NCBI GenBank assembly: GCA_015345905.1
Contig: JADDTR010000010.1
Coordinates: 744,001-808,000 of the forward strand
DNA: 64,000 bases
Direction of reading: 5' to 3'
From: Aotearoamyces nothofagi
Lineage: Eukaryota; Ascomycota; Leotiomycetes; Leotiales; Tympanidaceae
In this document: positions 22,679-49,917 of the stretch, piece by piece
Layout: each line of letters opens with the position of its first letter
How positions within the stretch are numbered: the stretch's first letter is position 1
Notes under the pieces: generated by a model
What the model saw: only the letters and a program-made list of their open reading frames with translations
The model's database searches: none
Told to the model about the DNA's origin: nothing
Translations under genes and position numbers: made by a program

Positions 22679-24752
22679 TTAGATACTGACACCGCTTAGC
22701 CCATTAGCCAAGGCTCCATTGATCTCTCTTTGAGCATCTAGCTGGACAATTTCTCTCGTAACTCTCTCGAGACACCCACTCGCAGCAGCCACAAAGCCCA
22801 GGTATGGACGACTAGGGCTCAGAACTCTGGAAAGGTACTCGGGGTGGAACTGTACCCCGACGTACCATGGATGATCCTTCAGCTCTATAATTTCCATTCT
22901 CTCACCCTTGTCGTCCTTTCCAATGAAATGTAGGCCGCCATCAACCAACCGCTCGATATAGTCAGGGTTGACCTCGTATCTGTGGCGATGACGCTCATTG
23001 ATGACTTTCTTCTCACCATACAATTTTCGCAGCTTTGACCACTCGCTACCATCTTGGAAGATGGTAGGTCTGATACCAAGACGCATCGTACCACCAAGAG
23101 CAGTCTTGTCAATTTCTGGCATGAAGATCACCACAGGGTCTGTACAATTTTCGGAGAGCTCGACGCTGCCTGCTGCAGGCAAGGAGCAGACATGGCGAGC
23201 ATACTCGATAACGGCAATTTGCATACCGAGGCAAATGCCTAGATAAGGCGTCTTGTTTGTTCTTGCCCATTCCGCAGCCTTGATCATTCCCTCAGTGCCT
23301 CTGTTACCGAAGCCACCAGGGACAAGAATACCATCAGCAGTACACACTTCGTGCCATGCTTTGTGGAATCCAGCAGGGTTATCGTGCTTAGCCTGGTCTT
23401 CTAGATTAGAGGCATCGACCCAGATAAGATTCAGTTTCTTGCCGCAGCGCATAGAACAGTGCTCAAGGGACTTGATGACGGAGAGGTAGGAATCATGCAG
23501 GTTGGTGTATTTGCCAACTAGCACGATATCGACGCTCTCGTACATGCGCTCTTGGGTAGTCGTCAGGGTATTCCATTCGGTCCAAATGCTCTGACCACGT
23601 TTAACCAGTGCAGAGGCCTTGATAATACTATCGAGCCGAAGAATTTCACGAATGGTGGGGATGAGGCCCTGCTTTTCGAGAAGGAGGGGAACGTGGTAGG
23701 TAGAGGAGACATTGTGAACGGCAATGACTTGCTCGGGCTCAACTTGACAGAACATGGAAATTTTGTTGGTGGTGGCTTTCTCCAGAGGGACGTCGCATCT
23801 GCAAGCAATCTTTAAGATGTTAATCTACCGTAAATAAGGGCGATGACCAAAACTTACCAAATCTGGGCTCAAGCCGGCACTCCGAACATCTCGAATAGCC
23901 TGCTGGGTTGGCTTTGTCTTCTGCTCGCCTTGGATAACTGGAACGAGCGATACGTGTATCTGCAGGAAATTTCCCTTGCCCGCTCTTCTCCTCAATTGCC
24001 GCATAGACTCGACGAATGGCGCACTCTCGATATCACCGACTGTACCACCCAACTCAATAATACAGACATCAGGAGTCTCATTTGTATCATCGACCGGAAT
24101 CTGAGCAACTCTCTCAATCCAGTCTTGGACTGCATCGGTAAGATGTGGAACGACCTGCACAGTCCGACCAAGGTAATCACCTCTTCGCTCCCGCTCAATG
24201 ACGTGCTGATAAACCTTGCCAGTTGTAATATTGTTCTCCCGAGTCAGAGTGATATTGAGATAGCGCTCGTAGTTTCCCAAGTCGAGATCGACTTCGCCGC
24301 CGTCATCGAGGACAAAGACTTCACCGTGCCTGTGCAACTCATGCATTAGTAATGAGCATTTATGTCTCCTCATCTTCCGTAAAAATAGGATATACGAGGA
24401 TCGTCGAGAAGAGTACACCTACTCGGTAGGAGCCATGGTACCAGCATCCACATTCATGTACGGATCGATTTTAATGCTCGTGACGTGCAGCAATTGTCAG
24501 CCAACCTCCAAAATCCGCGTCCACAAGAATAACATATCTTAAGTCCAATAGTCTTGAGCAATAACCCGGTGGAAGAGGCTATATGTCACGTCCATCAGCA
24601 TCACGCGTCGCGTCATATCTCAATTGGCACGGTCCTACCAATTACGCCTTTTCCGATCCCAGAGATCACACCTGGTACGAAGGTCAGCTAGACTGCTTCA
24701 AAAAGTCAAAGCGTTGGCATTACTGACCTCCGGATACTAAAACGTACTTCAT
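22679..24752 (-). CDS. ura7: CTP synthase
   Basis: Makes CTP from UTP, ATP and glutamine in the cytosol. Six minus-strand exons: 24752-24728, 24671-24639, 24578-24538, 24484-24423, 24329-23858 and 23809-22679 (587 residues). The N-terminus [19 protein letters not shown] is the family start, followed by [31 protein letters not shown] and [20 protein letters not shown] (amidoligase domain, ~1-275). The glutamine amidotransferase domain follows: YLGICLGMQ with nucleophile Cys404 and FHPEY with His533/Glu535. Length is normal for fungi. Four introns are GT-AG. Intron 3 (24485-24537) starts AT and ends AC; no GT-AG choice I tested gives the conserved K-V-T-S-I-K-I-D sequence (see its own entry). 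Exons 2 and 3 are unusually short (33 and 41 nt). The closest neighbour downstream in the window, the velvet gene, is transcribed the same way, 497 bp away. Confidence 0.93.
24485..24537 (-). other. Apparent AT-AC intron (intron 3 of CTP synthase)
   Basis: On the minus strand the 53-nt interval begins ATATGTTATT and ends GACAATTGCTGCAC. Removing it joins ...[10 protein letters not shown] in phase 0 to [11 protein letters not shown], exactly the family sequence. The donor ATATGT is the fungal GTATGT donor with G1 replaced by A, the end is AC instead of AG, and a branch-like GCTGAC lies about 11 nt before the end. This is what a U2-type AT-AC intron looks like; the U12 donor (ATATCCTT) does not match. 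First-base A with last-base C is a known compatible pair. Confidence 0.75.
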
Positions 24753-25249: not shown

Positions 25250-26738
25250 TCATTTTTTAGACCGCTTCTGTCCTTTCTTAGAACTATGCTCATCTCTATC
25301 TCCGCTACCATCTTCGGCAGCGTCATCCTCCTCACTCTCTTCACGAGCGTGTACCGCGGCTGTTTTTTCACCTATCTTTTCAATGCCTTTCTTGACTGAG
25401 ATCAGGCAGCCTTGCTCTTTGAGGCGTTTTGTAAGCTCAGTGCTAGATCTCATACCGGGAAAGTCCTTAGCGGCATAGACCTGGAACACATCAGTGATAA
25501 CGGTGGCCATGAATGGTGCCCTATCTCCAGGCTTCATTTTCGACGGATCTAGAACTACTAGCACAAATTTGAGTCGATACCTCCCCGTTGTTCGGCATGA
25601 CAAATCAGGAAAGCAGAAAAAGCACCCTTCGATGTTATTCTCATCCTTGCCGACGAATGGCGATGCCACAAGAGTACCCATCAGTCGCCGCTGCTGGCGC
25701 CTGTCGCCTATGTCATCCATGGCAGTATGATCTGTATCAGTTTCTGCATTCCATAACGAGCAGTGGATAACACAGAAAGGATAGCGCAATCTGGCCTTTC
25801 TCTCTTCTGGAGTAGCATCTGGATCATTGATTGTCATCTCTAGGATGGGCGGCGGATCGATAACTCGCCGATCTCTTTCACCAAACCCACAAGCTCGAGC
25901 TGCGATCGGTTGCTGTCGGATGCTAATGTTGAACTGAGGTTCCGATCTACATAACGTAAGTAAGCACAACAAACATTTACTAGACTCTTCATTTATCATA
26001 CCTCTTCTCAATCAATCCAGAAATTGGCATCAATCTTGAACTCTCGCCTTGTTGAGACAGGCTAGGGAGACTGCGTCGCGACGTAAAATCCTCTTGCCTG
26101 GAAGATTGGATATGCATCTTCGTTTGAGACGTAATACTCTGTCGTGTAGGCGTTCCGTCGGAGAATATTGGTCGCTGTACTGAGAAATCTTGCGCGTGAT
26201 GCGTGTGCCGCACGGTCTGCGGCGGCCTTTCTTGCTCGTAGGGGCGTGATGGAACTGGCGCTGGTGATGCGTCAATATGAGAATAATAACCCTCCAAGGC
26301 ATCACGCCTCTGACCTATTTTCTTTACCTGGCGCTGCCCAGCTAGCTGCGTGTTCTCTGAGGATTTGGGGGCTTCATAGGGAGATAAATGCATAGGGGAA
26401 ACCCTTGATGGCTGATCATGGCGGTGGAGGATATGACATGGAGGGGCAGCGGGATACTGTTGACTGTATTGAAGCGGGTGAATTAGAGGGCCCTGTCGAG
26501 GTATATACGAGTTAATCGCCTGCGTCGACCGGTCCGTAGAATGCACGGCCGGCAGCATGACATCGGGTATGCTCGATGGATACGGTGGATTTCTCCGGGC
26601 AATATCATCTGGCATATAAGGTAATGGAGGAAGATGAAGGTGGAGCTCCGGATGTGGCCTTGTGGATTCCGTCAAAGACATTGTTACCGGTGTAGTGCTG
26701 GATGGTATAGGTAGCGAAGATGTCGGCCGTGGTGACAT
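25250..26738 (-). CDS. velC: Velvet-family developmental regulator, VelC-like
   Basis: Minus-strand exons 26738-26002 and 25946-25250 join in phase (477 residues); intron 55 bp. The first ~245 residues are Pro/Ser/His-rich and disordered. The velvet domain occupies about residues 247-425: FNISIRQQPIAARACGFGER, then DRRVIDPPPILEMTI, RRLMGTLVASPFVGKDE, GCFFCFPDLSCRTTGRYRLK and TELTKRLKEQGCLISVKKG. The tail is acidic then basic (KKGQKRSKK, a likely nuclear signal). Velvet proteins are NF-kB-like DNA-binding dimers that link light, sporulation and secondary metabolism. The sequence belongs to the VosA/VelC side of the family (CGFGERDRRVIDPPPI). A long N-terminal extension with the velvet domain near the C-terminus is the VelC layout, whereas VosA carries its velvet domain near the N-terminus; hence VelC is preferred but VosA is not excluded. 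Confidence 0.82.
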
Positions 26739-35741: not shown

Positions 35742-38700
35742 TCAGCCCCATCTCACACTCTCGCGCTCGCTCTCCAACCGCTTCATGCGCTCCTCCTCCC
35801 TATCCGCGTCGTCGAGTCTCTCACTCTTTCTTCGACTTTTCGATCCGCGACTCTTTCTTCCGCTGTCATCTCCCTCGTCTCTCGCGCGCTTGATACCGGC
35901 ACCCGCGAGCGACGCCAGACCCGCGATGCGCTGCGCTTCCTTCAGTAAGCGCTCTCTATTCCGCGCCTCTCGTTCGAGAGTGTGAGGATCGACATTGGCT
36001 CCCTTGGGCTTCGATGGCGGTGCAGCGGCGGGCTCTGCGCGCTTGCTGGACGAGGCGTGACGATCAGAGTTGTAATGGCGACTTGAGCGTTCGCGATCGC
36101 GATCTCTGCGCTCATCATTGCGAGACGAGGAACGCATGTTCTCCGCGTCGGCCTGCACTGCGCGCGTGCTTGCGCCTTTGATCTCCAAGGCTTTGCCTAT
36201 CGACATGGCACGTGGACCGCTGGGAATCTTAGGTTCTGGCTTCTCTTCTTCTGCATCGATTGTCGCTGGAGTAGCCTCATTGGGTTCTGTTCTCGAGTTC
36301 GGAGATGGTTCTGCCGAGTCATGGCGGCGACGATGACGATTATCCCGATCGCCATCTCGACTCCCCTCTCGGTCTCGGCTCCGATGTGAGCGGTGCGATG
36401 AACGGCGTTTGTGGGATGAAGAAGATTTATGTTCTCGGTCTCGTTCGCGTTCGCGCTCTCTATCCCGATCTCCATGCTCCCGCCTGCTACGGTGGCTGGA
36501 GCGACGAGATTCGGTAGGTGATTGAGACCTTGAGCGTTCTAGTTCATCAGTGCTCGCTGCTTTCGTGTCTTCTTCCACTGCATCATCCTCTCTATCATTA
36601 GTATCGCCGTCATGCTTCTTCGCATGCCGACGTCTGCGCTCCCTACGCCGTTCTTCCTCTTTTCCATCGTCGGACGGTGACGTTGAACGGTGACGATGGC
36701 GTCTTCTATGCCTATCGTTTTGGTCGCGTGATCTAGATATAGAACGCGATCGTGAACGTGATGGAGACCTGGATCTATCTCTATCTGTGGCCTTGGGAGG
36801 CTCGCCACCTCCGGATATTACACGAGACTCAACATTGGTACCATTAGCCCTGGAACCGGCTCGCCCAACAATAGAAAACCCCCCTCTACCACGCAAGTTA
36901 ACCAGACTGGTATTGGGTAGTCCATCTCTCATAGCCTTGGGACCTGTGGGCGCATTGATGGGCACTGATGGAAATTTAGCAGCTACAGCATAGTTCTGAG
37001 GTGGCTGCATTGAGCCATATCCGCTTTGATCCTGGAAGCTACCACGAAATCCTCCGCGGGCGGCCGTTGAGTAACCTGATATACCATTATTTGAGAATTT
37101 TTGCGACTCGAGCTCTTCCAGAGTTAGAATCCGCTGAGGAGTATCATCTTGAGCCTTAGTTTGAGCCTCAGTCTGTTCCTGTAATGGGTGCTCTTGAGAT
37201 ACTTCATCATGCGGTACAACGTTTTGGCCTACAGGCTTCTCACCATCGGTAGCAGGAGCACCATCGTCATGATTTATCTTAGTTTCAGCCGCTTCATCTG
37301 AGACATTGATTTCGGAGGCCGCCCGAACCTCACGACCAAATTCATCAACATTATCGGGCGGCGCAGTGGGCGCCATGTCAGCCTTTGGTCCTGTAGGGAT
37401 AGAACCTGTATCATTCATGGGCGTAGCTGAACCATTTTGTAATTGGGGCACCTGGTTTGACAGAGGCTCTGCGTTCTGACCAAATCCTTGGCCACCGCGA
37501 CCTTGGCCGTAGCCGTAGCCACTACCCCTACCTCTTCCTCGGGAGTAATAACCTTGTCCTTGGTGACCGTAGCCATTCTGTTGATAGTCATTGTACTGGT
37601 TTATGCGACCGTAATTACCTTGATTATAGCCCGTAGCATGTTGCTGGTATCCAGAGTTATTTGCTCCAAAATCACCGTGACCCATGCCAGAAGCATTTGG
37701 ATGATTGAAATTATCTTGGCCGACATTCCATGATTGTTGACCGTTCCAGCCATTATTGAAGCCAGCACCTACTCCCCCATCGTAGCCTGCCATCCCACCC
37801 ATTCCAATGTTCATGCCGTTCATGCCGTTCATTCCCATGCCTTGTGCACCAAATCCCCCATTCATATACATATTCTGCATCGCCATTGGGTCCATCGTCA
37901 TACCTGGCATTCCTAAAGTGTGTTAGATCTTTCGTTTAAGAGGGGACGTTAAGCATACCCATCATTGGAAAAGCTCCAAAGGCATTTGATCCCATGCCGT
38001 TTTGCATTGCCATCATCATCTGCATCTGGTTGAAGTCTCCTCCTTGTCCCATCATAGCCATATTTGGAAATCCACCAGCTGTAGTAGGATCAAGTCCAAA
38101 CCCCATACCAAACGCCGGGGTTTGCGACATGTCAGGCACAACTATAGGCTGATCATTCGTGTCTTTCTTAGGAGATTCCTGTTCTTCGGCTTGACCATTC
38201 ACATCCTTTTCAGTGAAGTTTCCAGTATCGTTGGCTGTCGTACTGCTTTCCTCGGTCTGCTCCTGGCCAGGCGCAATCTCCTGGAAACAGTTAATATGCT
38301 TTCTATAACAACATGCTATTATCTTACCTCAATAGATGGTTGCGGGATATCCTGCTGCTCCTCAAGCGATATGTTACCATCCACAACATTTTGGTTGGCC
38401 TGATCTCCATCCTGCTGTGCCATCGAAGGATGTTCAGGTGCGAAGGGTTCTTCAACTTTGACATCCGGCGCAGGAATTGGGTTTGGCTGTAGAACCCGAG
38501 GCTCAATTGGAGTAGCTGGTAGTGTATTCTTCAGCTCCTTGAGTCGTAAAGCTTCCCGCTTTTTTTCTTCCGTCCTGAGAAACACCTTGATCGTAGTTCG
38601 AAGTGATTTATTTGGCTTGCAGTCTTCTGCTGCTACCGGTGTATGCTCGCAGACTGGGCAAGATGAAGGCAAGGAGGATTGGCCTGATATATTGTCAGCA

Positions 38701-47218: not shown

Positions 47219-49917
47219 ATGAGCGACATGTATGTCACGGCCTAACATAGCCTGCTGTATCTACTACCTAGATTTAAACTGACTATAGCAGATACCGACT
47301 GCCAGAAGATGCTGATGCTGATTCCATATCCAAACATCGGGAAATATCATCATATCGCAAGAACAAATATATGCCACCATTTAATAGCACAGAATCAGGT
47401 GCTTTGAACTTAAGAGGCATCGAAGATTTATACTACGAGAAATACCCAGCTTTGTTCCAACCTATCATCTACAGGCCTGATTTCGAAGAAGAGTCTTCTG
47501 TCGTCGATCCGCCTAGAAAGTTTCACTATATTAAAAGGCCACCAATTGGACCTCGTACAAAGTCAGACAACACAAGAGTAAAGCGTGGGTCAAATTTGGT
47601 AAATCCCCGTGGGTACAAAGTTAGTTTTACAGGAGAAACCGCACCAGCTGCGCCGAGCTATATACCGGACCATTTAGACCCATCTACACCACCGGAGAGT
47701 CACCAAGAAGCAAGCCGACTTCATTCACTAGACCAAGAGGAATTGGACAGAAGGGAAAGTCGACTTCCTTCATTAGTTCAAGAGGAATGGGAGAGAAAGG
47801 AAAGTCGACTTTCTTCACTAGATCAAGACGAATGGGGGAGAAGGTCTACACGGTCTACACTCGGCAGCATCGCAGAGGTAGATAACGACTCCCAAGATGA
47901 ACCCGTCAGTGGTGGTCGACAATTCCCATTGGTCAATCCTGAACATAGACCAATTGGGGAGGCTATTATCATCCCGTCGGCCGATCCTGCTCCATCCTTT
48001 TCCACTAGATCTCGATCAAATTCCGAGACCAGTATATCAGATATCCCTTCCCCAGAGGTTGAAGTAGACCCTGGATACGCTCCAAGGGAGCCGCCCCCTG
48101 TCTTCATAGATCCGTTTGCAAGAGACCGCATTTACACTCCGGATCATCCGAGTTCTATCATCCACGAGCAGCCGCCGGAGGCCGAGGGTGATGCCGTCGT
48201 CACCATCAACGATGACGGAATTTCTGATCCGTTTAATCCATCTCGCATTCTTACAAAGGCAGAGCTGGGCTCACAAAGAGTATTTGTTGGAAGCATAATA
48301 CTTTTACTTAATGCCACCTGTATAGTATGCGCCTTAATATTCGCCGGATCAATAGGAACCTTCACATTGGCTTTCATTTGTTTTGTGAAATGCAAGGATT
48401 TCATCTTCGTCTGGATCCAAATATTTGGGCTAAGCTTTCGTGCCCTCAAGGCATGGCATCACCCCAAGCCGGACGTCCCAGGAACGTGGATCTTGAGTTT
48501 GATCCCAACCTATTCGGAGAGTGAGGAGCAGATTGTCAAAGCGATTTATTCGTTGCGCGACAACGGCGTTGAACCTCACAAGCAGGTAATGTGCGTTATA
48601 ATGGACGGCAAGCCACGAGATATAGTGAAGCATATGTCTTCAGTCATCATATCTATGGAACGAAAGTACGTCAACTTCAAATACAGACGAGCGGACCTAA
48701 AAATCACGGCTGGCTTTGTGGGCAATATCCCAACCATCGTCATTGAGAAGGTCCAGAATTCCGGAAAGAAGGATTCGTTAATCCTATGCCACGACCTCTT
48801 CAACTATCCCAGAGATAATATCGAAGAGTCTATCCAAAAGCTACGCGAAGAGATATTCAGAGATGTTCTCCCCAAACTTACTCACGTCCCCAACTTTCCC
48901 GGCTTCGAGCTGGTTTTCTGCACCGATGCCGACTCCACGATCCATGAAGGTGCCCTTCGCAAACTCGCTGACGCTCTTATGAGGGATGACGCCGCCATTG
49001 CAGCATGCGGCCTTGTCTATGTTGAGCTCGAAAAGGGTCTGGAATGGTCCTTCTGGAATAACTTCCAATCCTTTCAATATACATATGGCCAGTTTGTACG
49101 TCGTGCCGCCGAGGGCCTCATTGGAAAAGTGACCTGCCTGCCGGGCTGTATCACTATGATCCGTGTACGACCGGAAATGGCTGGAGCAATCAAGAAGTAC
49201 GCAAAGCCTGTTACTTCTGCTCCTGTTCTTCAACATCAAGTTCAGTATCTAGGCACCGATAGACGTCTTACCTATTCTATGCTGAGCCAGGGAAAAGGGC
49301 TGCGTACACTCTTTGTCCCTGATGCTGGTAGCGAGACACTCGTGCCGCAAAGCTTGAAGCATTATCTCTCACAACGTCGCCGTTGGGGTTCCAACGCCTA
49401 CTTCAATAACACCTACTACTTTAGCGGAGACAACATGATCTGGTTTACGCGTATTGAAGCATTGATCGATATTGTCCGTATGTCCATGGTATACTACCGT
49501 CTTGTCAACACGATATTATTCTTCATATCACTAGCGACGAGCTTTAGCATCATGGCGCTTATCCCTATGCTGATTATCAGCCAACTTCCAACGCTATGGT
49601 ATATATTTATCGTGGCGTTTCTAAGTAAGACTTTGAGGAAGAAGTGGAAGAAGTTGATTGTGGGATATGCAATTGATAAGTGTGTCGGCCCGTTTCTGAG
49701 CCTGAGTGTATTCACGCTGGTAGTGAAGAACTTGGGCTCTCAGGCTTGGGGTATGTCCGGTACTATCGTACCAGCATCGGCAACAGCTAAACTACCAACA
49801 ACATCTGATGATCTCGATCCAGCAGCAGAAGCAGCAGAAGCCGCCGCACTGGAGAGTGAGATTCTAGACCGTGAAGAGAGAGAGAGAGAAGAACGAGGAG
49901 AGACAGTAGTTATATGA
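47219..49917 (+). CDS. Divergent chitin-synthase-like family 2 glycosyltransferase
   Basis: Exons 47219-47229 and 47292-49917 join in phase (878 residues); the first exon has only 11 nt, and an in-exon start (for example Met31) is possible. Residues 1-~330 are disordered and charged, with a 15-residue repeat (ESRLPSLVQEEWERK type) in three copies. Two membrane segments follow (RVFVGSIILLLNATCIVCAL, then LAFICFVKC). The catalytic GT2 core carries FCTDADS (Asp549, Asp551), LGTDRRLT (Asp660) and QRRRW (698-702), then three or four C-terminal membrane segments. This is the order of processive chitin synthases (Chitin_synth_2 superfamily). It lacks the myosin, cytochrome-b5 and DEK parts of class V/VII enzymes and has GTDRR where standard synthases have EDR. 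The product could be chitin or another beta-linked polymer; chitin is inferred from family and from the adjacent chitinase. Confidence 0.82.
47713..47846 (+). repeat. 45-bp in-frame tandem repeat in the GT2 gene
   Basis: Three units start at 47713, 47758 and 47803, each beginning AGYCGACTT. They encode the SRL-x-SL-xQEEW/DEW repeats; the unit is a multiple of three so the frame is kept. Confidence 0.85.

Follow-up and report, generated by a model that had tools for sequence, protein, structure and literature searches.

The window analysed here, a stretch of 64,000 nucleotides from the fungus Aotearoamyces nothofagi, contains a CTP synthase gene whose third intron appears to begin with AT and to end with AC. 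This raises the question of whether the gene depends on so rare an intron and, if so, which spliceosome would remove it. The sequence-only reading had proposed a U2-type AT-AC intron in a genuine CTP synthase gene, and this is the reading that best fits the tests run on the sequence. In particular, intron 3 is very probably a constitutive U2-type AT-AC (AT-AC type II) spliceosomal intron. If this is true, a gene presumed essential, as no second locus was found, relies on a class of introns that gene finders limited to GT-AG termini would miscall.

The CTP synthase gene and its introns

The features of the locus are as follows:

22679..24752, minus strand: CTP synthase gene, ATG to stop, six exons, 587 aa; matches PDB 7rkh and PF06418
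24672..24727, minus strand: intron 1, GT-AG, 56 nt
24579..24638, minus strand: intron 2, GT-AG, 60 nt
24485..24537, minus strand: putative intron 3, AT-AC termini, 53 nt, phase 0, at the K33/V34 junction
24532..24537, minus strand: predicted 5' splice site of intron 3, ATATGT, with G at +5; 5/6 match to GTATGT
24496..24501, minus strand: branch-like site of intron 3, GCTGAC, with the branch A at 24497, 12 nt before the intron end
24485..24487, minus strand: predicted 3' splice site of intron 3, CAC
24330..24422, minus strand: intron 4, GT-AG, 93 nt
23810..23857, minus strand: intron 5, GT-AG, 48 nt

The product matches 7rkh, a CTP synthase chain, in a PDB search that covers residues 1-565 of its 587 amino acids (E 2.8e-239), and its N-terminal 260 amino acids correspond to the Pfam domain PF06418 (CTP_synth_N). 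The chain 7rkh is presumably from yeast, and the PDB matches in general are taken by us to be yeast and human proteins; in the best 5 of the 27 matches, the region of the intron 3 junction is aligned without gaps. CTP synthase is an essential enzyme. A genome-wide search with the Pfam N-terminal domain, over 25.5 Mb in 55 contigs, detected no CTP synthase locus besides this one. The sole locus was picked up by this search in two pieces, and the in-frame TAG met there lies inside intron 5. With this locus as the only one detected, the splicing of intron 3 is presumably needed for growth.

Four of the five introns are ordinary GT-AG introns of 48-93 nt. Intron 5 requires the AAAG acceptor at 23810, and a more usual-looking TTGCAG is located 11 nt downstream (in the interval 23857-23799, minus strand); AAAG must be the acceptor, because the use of TTGCAG leads to a frameshift and to a protein that ends at 230 aa. 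Retention of intron 3 would truncate the protein to 60 aa. It had also been suggested that this intron could be a regulatory point for CTP supply, a suggestion for which no evidence emerged: a premature stop results from the retention of any one of the five introns, and therefore intron 3 is not special in that respect. Elsewhere in the window, a 726-codon open frame with a start very rich in Met and Gly (35745-37922, minus strand) has no Pfam match, and an open frame resembling chitin synthase (PF03142, 115.7 bits) occupies 47278-49914 on the plus strand.

Read on the minus strand from 24537 down to 24485, the putative intron is ATATGTTATTCTTGTGGACGCGGATTTTGGAGGTTGGCTGACAATTGCTGCAC, placed between CTTAAG and GTCACG. 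In other words, it runs ATATGTTATTC...GGCTGACAATTGCTGCAC, with GGACTTAAG before it and GTCACGAGC after it. The bases are as originally described, that is, 53 nt with ATATGT, GCTGAC and GCAC in this order. The ends of the intron cannot be slid to an equivalent position, because its first base is A and the base that follows the intron is G, while the last exon base is G and the last intron base is C.

Excisions compared through the protein

The evidence on intron 3 comes from the protein. When all start-end pairs between exon 3 and exon 4 were tried, exactly one single excision gave the expected conserved protein, namely the removal of the 53 nt from 24537 to 24485, which agrees with the sequence-only reading, where it was the only such removal found. 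A survey of excisions of at least 20 nt that leave the downstream frame intact and free of stops comprised 2473 cases, including two with GT-AG and one with GC-AG termini, all three of which harm the conserved core. The product of the 53-nt AT-AC excision scores 398.5 bits against CTP_synth_N in Pfam, and the alternatives reach 389.5 bits (AT-AC, 56 nt), 388.6 bits (AT-AG, 59 nt), 383.3 bits (GT-AG, 29 nt) and 358.7 bits (GT-AG, 89 nt).

An ordinary GT-AG intron would have the usual termini and an open frame at either of two lengths. The sequence-only reading was right that the 29-nt version leaves a foreign insert, as ten foreign residues replace VT; its statement that every other GT-AG choice it tried is out of frame has to be refined, since the 89-nt excision is also in frame, with the loss of twelve conserved residues. 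Both products alter the conserved core and fall 15 and 40 bits below that of the AT-AC excision, and 29 nt is shorter than each of the four other introns of the gene (48-93 nt). An intron of this kind is therefore a highly improbable explanation.

Two further non-standard excisions deserve attention, a 56-nt one with AT-AC ends, giving GLK-M-SIKID, and a 59-nt one with AT-AG ends, giving GLK-I-IKID. Both are in frame and cost just 9 to 10 bits in Pfam. However, both would use the donor ATGTTA, which lacks G at +5, and both shorten a conserved distance. The spacing from GKG to (K/L)xDPY is 20 residues in 16/16 bacterial CTP synthases as well as in the AT-AC model, a comparison based on 16 loci that all come from bacterial records; it follows from this spacing that 53 nt must be removed. 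An N-terminal expression requiring GTM recovered 12 of the 16 bacterial loci, and a looser expression all 16, while a search for CTP synthase relatives among viral contigs found none. Either of these excisions is thus an unlikely substitute for the 53-nt intron.

The length being settled in this way, the exact position of the 53 nt can be considered. Excisions of the same length moved by -7 to +3 bases change a single residue (GLH, GLN or KI), and GLH and GLN are plausible. Because these shifted excisions alter only one residue, the protein alone does not define the boundary of intron 3 to the exact base. Among the 31 excisions of 53 nt, shifted or not, with at most 6 changes, a known terminal splice-site pair occurs at offset 0 only. 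A stwintron reading was also considered and ruled out by reasoning, as the outer bases would still be A and C after any nested excision.

Probable spliceosome type, and proposed mechanism and origin

The words inside intron 3 point to the major spliceosome. Its ends are AT and AC, as indicated by the sequence together with the unique protein-restoring excision; its donor, ATATGT, has the G at +5 that is characteristic of U2-type AT-AC introns (PMC2831892, in the part consulted); and GCTGAC, a putative branch site of the U2 type, is normally spaced, with the A 12 nt before the intron end. The branch word GCTGAC and the G at +5 are the grounds on which intron 3 is assigned to the U2 type rather than the U12 type. 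The donor and branch words would make this the better reading whatever the status of the minor machinery.

The consensus words of U12-type introns are ATATCCTTT for the donor and the nine-base TTCCTTAAC for the branch site. Removal of intron 3 by the minor spliceosome, as a U12-type AT-AC intron, would accord with its termini and with a donor that agrees with the consensus at 6 of 9 bases. Nevertheless, the bases at +5/+6 are GT, not CC, whereas the published donor rule is RTATCCTT, in which no more than one C of the pair may be replaced by T (PMC2846911, relevant passage). The best match to the branch word is 5/9 at a usable distance, and 6/9 is reached only by a match overlapping the 3' end; the U12 branch site is also given as CCTTAAC (PMC3033335, relevant passage). 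Moreover, the U2 snRNA is present in the genome (E 5.1e-34), and U12, U6atac and U11 gave no match in a search run without a positive control for the minor families. The earlier statement that ascomycetes such as Pezizomycotina lack the U12 machinery was weakly tested here for this fungus, and its absence is based mainly on published surveys, which in the passages concerned describe minor introns as completely absent from Dikarya (PMC10639083) and report that Basidiomycota, Ascomycota and Pezizomycotina have lost U12 splicing (PMC2846911). Taken with the donor and branch words, this makes a U12-type intron 3 very improbable.

As to the nature of the organism, there are 15 HET-domain matches in the genome, and an open frame with a Velvet domain (PF11754, 195.1 bits; 25253-26011, minus strand) adjoins the CTP synthase gene. 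Both the HET domains and the neighbouring Velvet gene fit a filamentous ascomycete.

A mechanism can be proposed for the U2-type intron. The major spliceosome would recognise the donor ATATGT after AAG, aided by its G at +5, together with GCTGAC as the branch site. The second splicing step would then involve a pairing of A at the first position with C at the last, replacing the usual pairing of G with G. Suppression work on first and last intron bases exists in yeast. For U2-type AT-AC introns, which have G at +5, the interaction of the first and last bases is described as limited in freedom (PMC2831892, in the passage on this interaction). Intron 3 may have originated from a GT-AG intron that lost its +1 G by transition, with function kept or regained when the last base became C.

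A different origin would be that of an ancient relic, in which a U12-type AT-AC intron predating the loss of the minor spliceosome in Dikarya came to be U2-spliced with its AT-AC ends preserved, and was perhaps retained because its inefficient splicing adjusts the level of CTP synthase; we give this little credence. The U2-type intron of the present gene would offer a clean test case for the handling of AT-AC ends by the ordinary spliceosome. It would also be a compact natural substrate for tests of first-last base pairing, in a fungus that probably lacks a minor spliceosome.

Search for further AT-AC introns in this genome, and AT-AC introns of other organisms

The pattern ATATGT..GCTGAC..AC occurs 86 times in the genome and its reversed control 74 times, which is no clear excess, while its GT..AG counterpart has 192 matches against 87 for its reversed control. 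As the AT-AC motif is no more frequent than expected by chance, it is the protein, not the motif, that marks intron 3 as an intron. The 86 matches represent 62 distinct donors, including that of CTP synthase. The other 61 donors correspond to 62 loci, in which 93 donor-acceptor pairs were tested with the requirement of an open frame of at least 75 nt on each side, a rule that misses introns between short exons, CTP synthase intron 3 included. Both sides were open in 35 of these pairs, in 24 loci. Codon scoring and inspection of the best 25 of the 35 revealed no convincing second AT-AC intron among the 61 other donors, and the genome therefore offers no second example.

Pfam comparison of the top two candidates identified one tRNA synthetase and left the other without a match. 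The top candidate (L010, 1484-1544) is an intron of isoleucyl-tRNA synthetase in which the motif occurs by chance; AT-AC ends were rejected there because the protein is accounted for, free of gaps, by a GT-AG intron whose start lies 17 nt upstream of ATATGT. A hexamer-model scan of 264 kb gave 77 GT-AG and 64 AT-AC candidates, with consensus signals in just 3 of the 77 GT-AG ones, which makes the scan uninformative. A sample of 88 GT-AG introns was obtained with the hexamer model at a lower threshold and a minimum length of 44 nt, chosen by the author. In 6 of these 88 introns GCTGAC was picked as the branch word, in a sample selected for branch-like words; since donor and branch consensus were required, such counts are partly circular.

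In fungi, AT-AC pairs are uncommon. According to the relevant passages of the sources, they account for 0.019% of the splice pairs annotated in fungi (PMC7072748), 0.03% of the introns that SnowyOwl models predict for A. niger, P. chrysosporium and T. lanuginosus (PMC4084796), and 69 of 14305 TopHat junctions (0.5%) in Trichoderma longibrachiatum (PMC4324775). For Fusarium graminearum, AT-AC is listed among the non-canonical sites, and seven non-canonical genes were Sanger-checked, which according to the passage need not include the AT-AC one (PMC3577648). These frequencies bear on the possibility of an assembly or sequencing error, with GTATGT and GCAG as the true ends of an ordinary GT-AG intron. 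The sequence comes from one assembly only, and apart from its first and last base intron 3 resembles a standard intron of this genome. However, such an error needs two independent wrong bases, at precisely the two positions known to accept A and C in combination, and we estimate, without computation, that it is far less likely than the 0.019%-0.5% share of AT-AC in fungi. An error at both ends is accordingly improbable, and a U2-type AT-AC intron is retained as the explanation.

A literature search, with most subscription papers outside its scope, found no description of this intron, and none of the papers listed combined AT-AC introns, fungi and CTP synthase. The F. graminearum, T. longibrachiatum and SnowyOwl data resemble the present case in having rare AT-AC junctions, and CTP synthase is not named in the passages concerned. 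Rare AT-AC introns are thus already known from fungi, and CTP synthase intron 3 most likely adds one more.

Comparable introns are described outside the fungi. In Caenorhabditis elegans, 59 AT-AC introns are reported, at least 42 of which were judged real by the authors; the minor spliceosome is thought to be absent there, so these introns are probably U2-spliced as well, but in an animal (PMC3033335, relevant passage). Sodium channel genes contain U2-type AT-AC introns that require the major spliceosome, and one of these, intron 21 of human SCN4A, is similar to intron 3 in its AT-AC termini and its G at +5; they differ in being vertebrate introns, for which descent from U12-type AT-AC introns has been proposed (all PMC2831892, in the part consulted). 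A GFP reporter in Arabidopsis also contains a non-canonical U2-type AT-AC intron. As described in the part of that report concerned, it is a transgene with a nested GT-AG competitor, whereas in the CTP synthase gene neither in-frame GT-AG excision keeps the conserved protein (PMC5473141).
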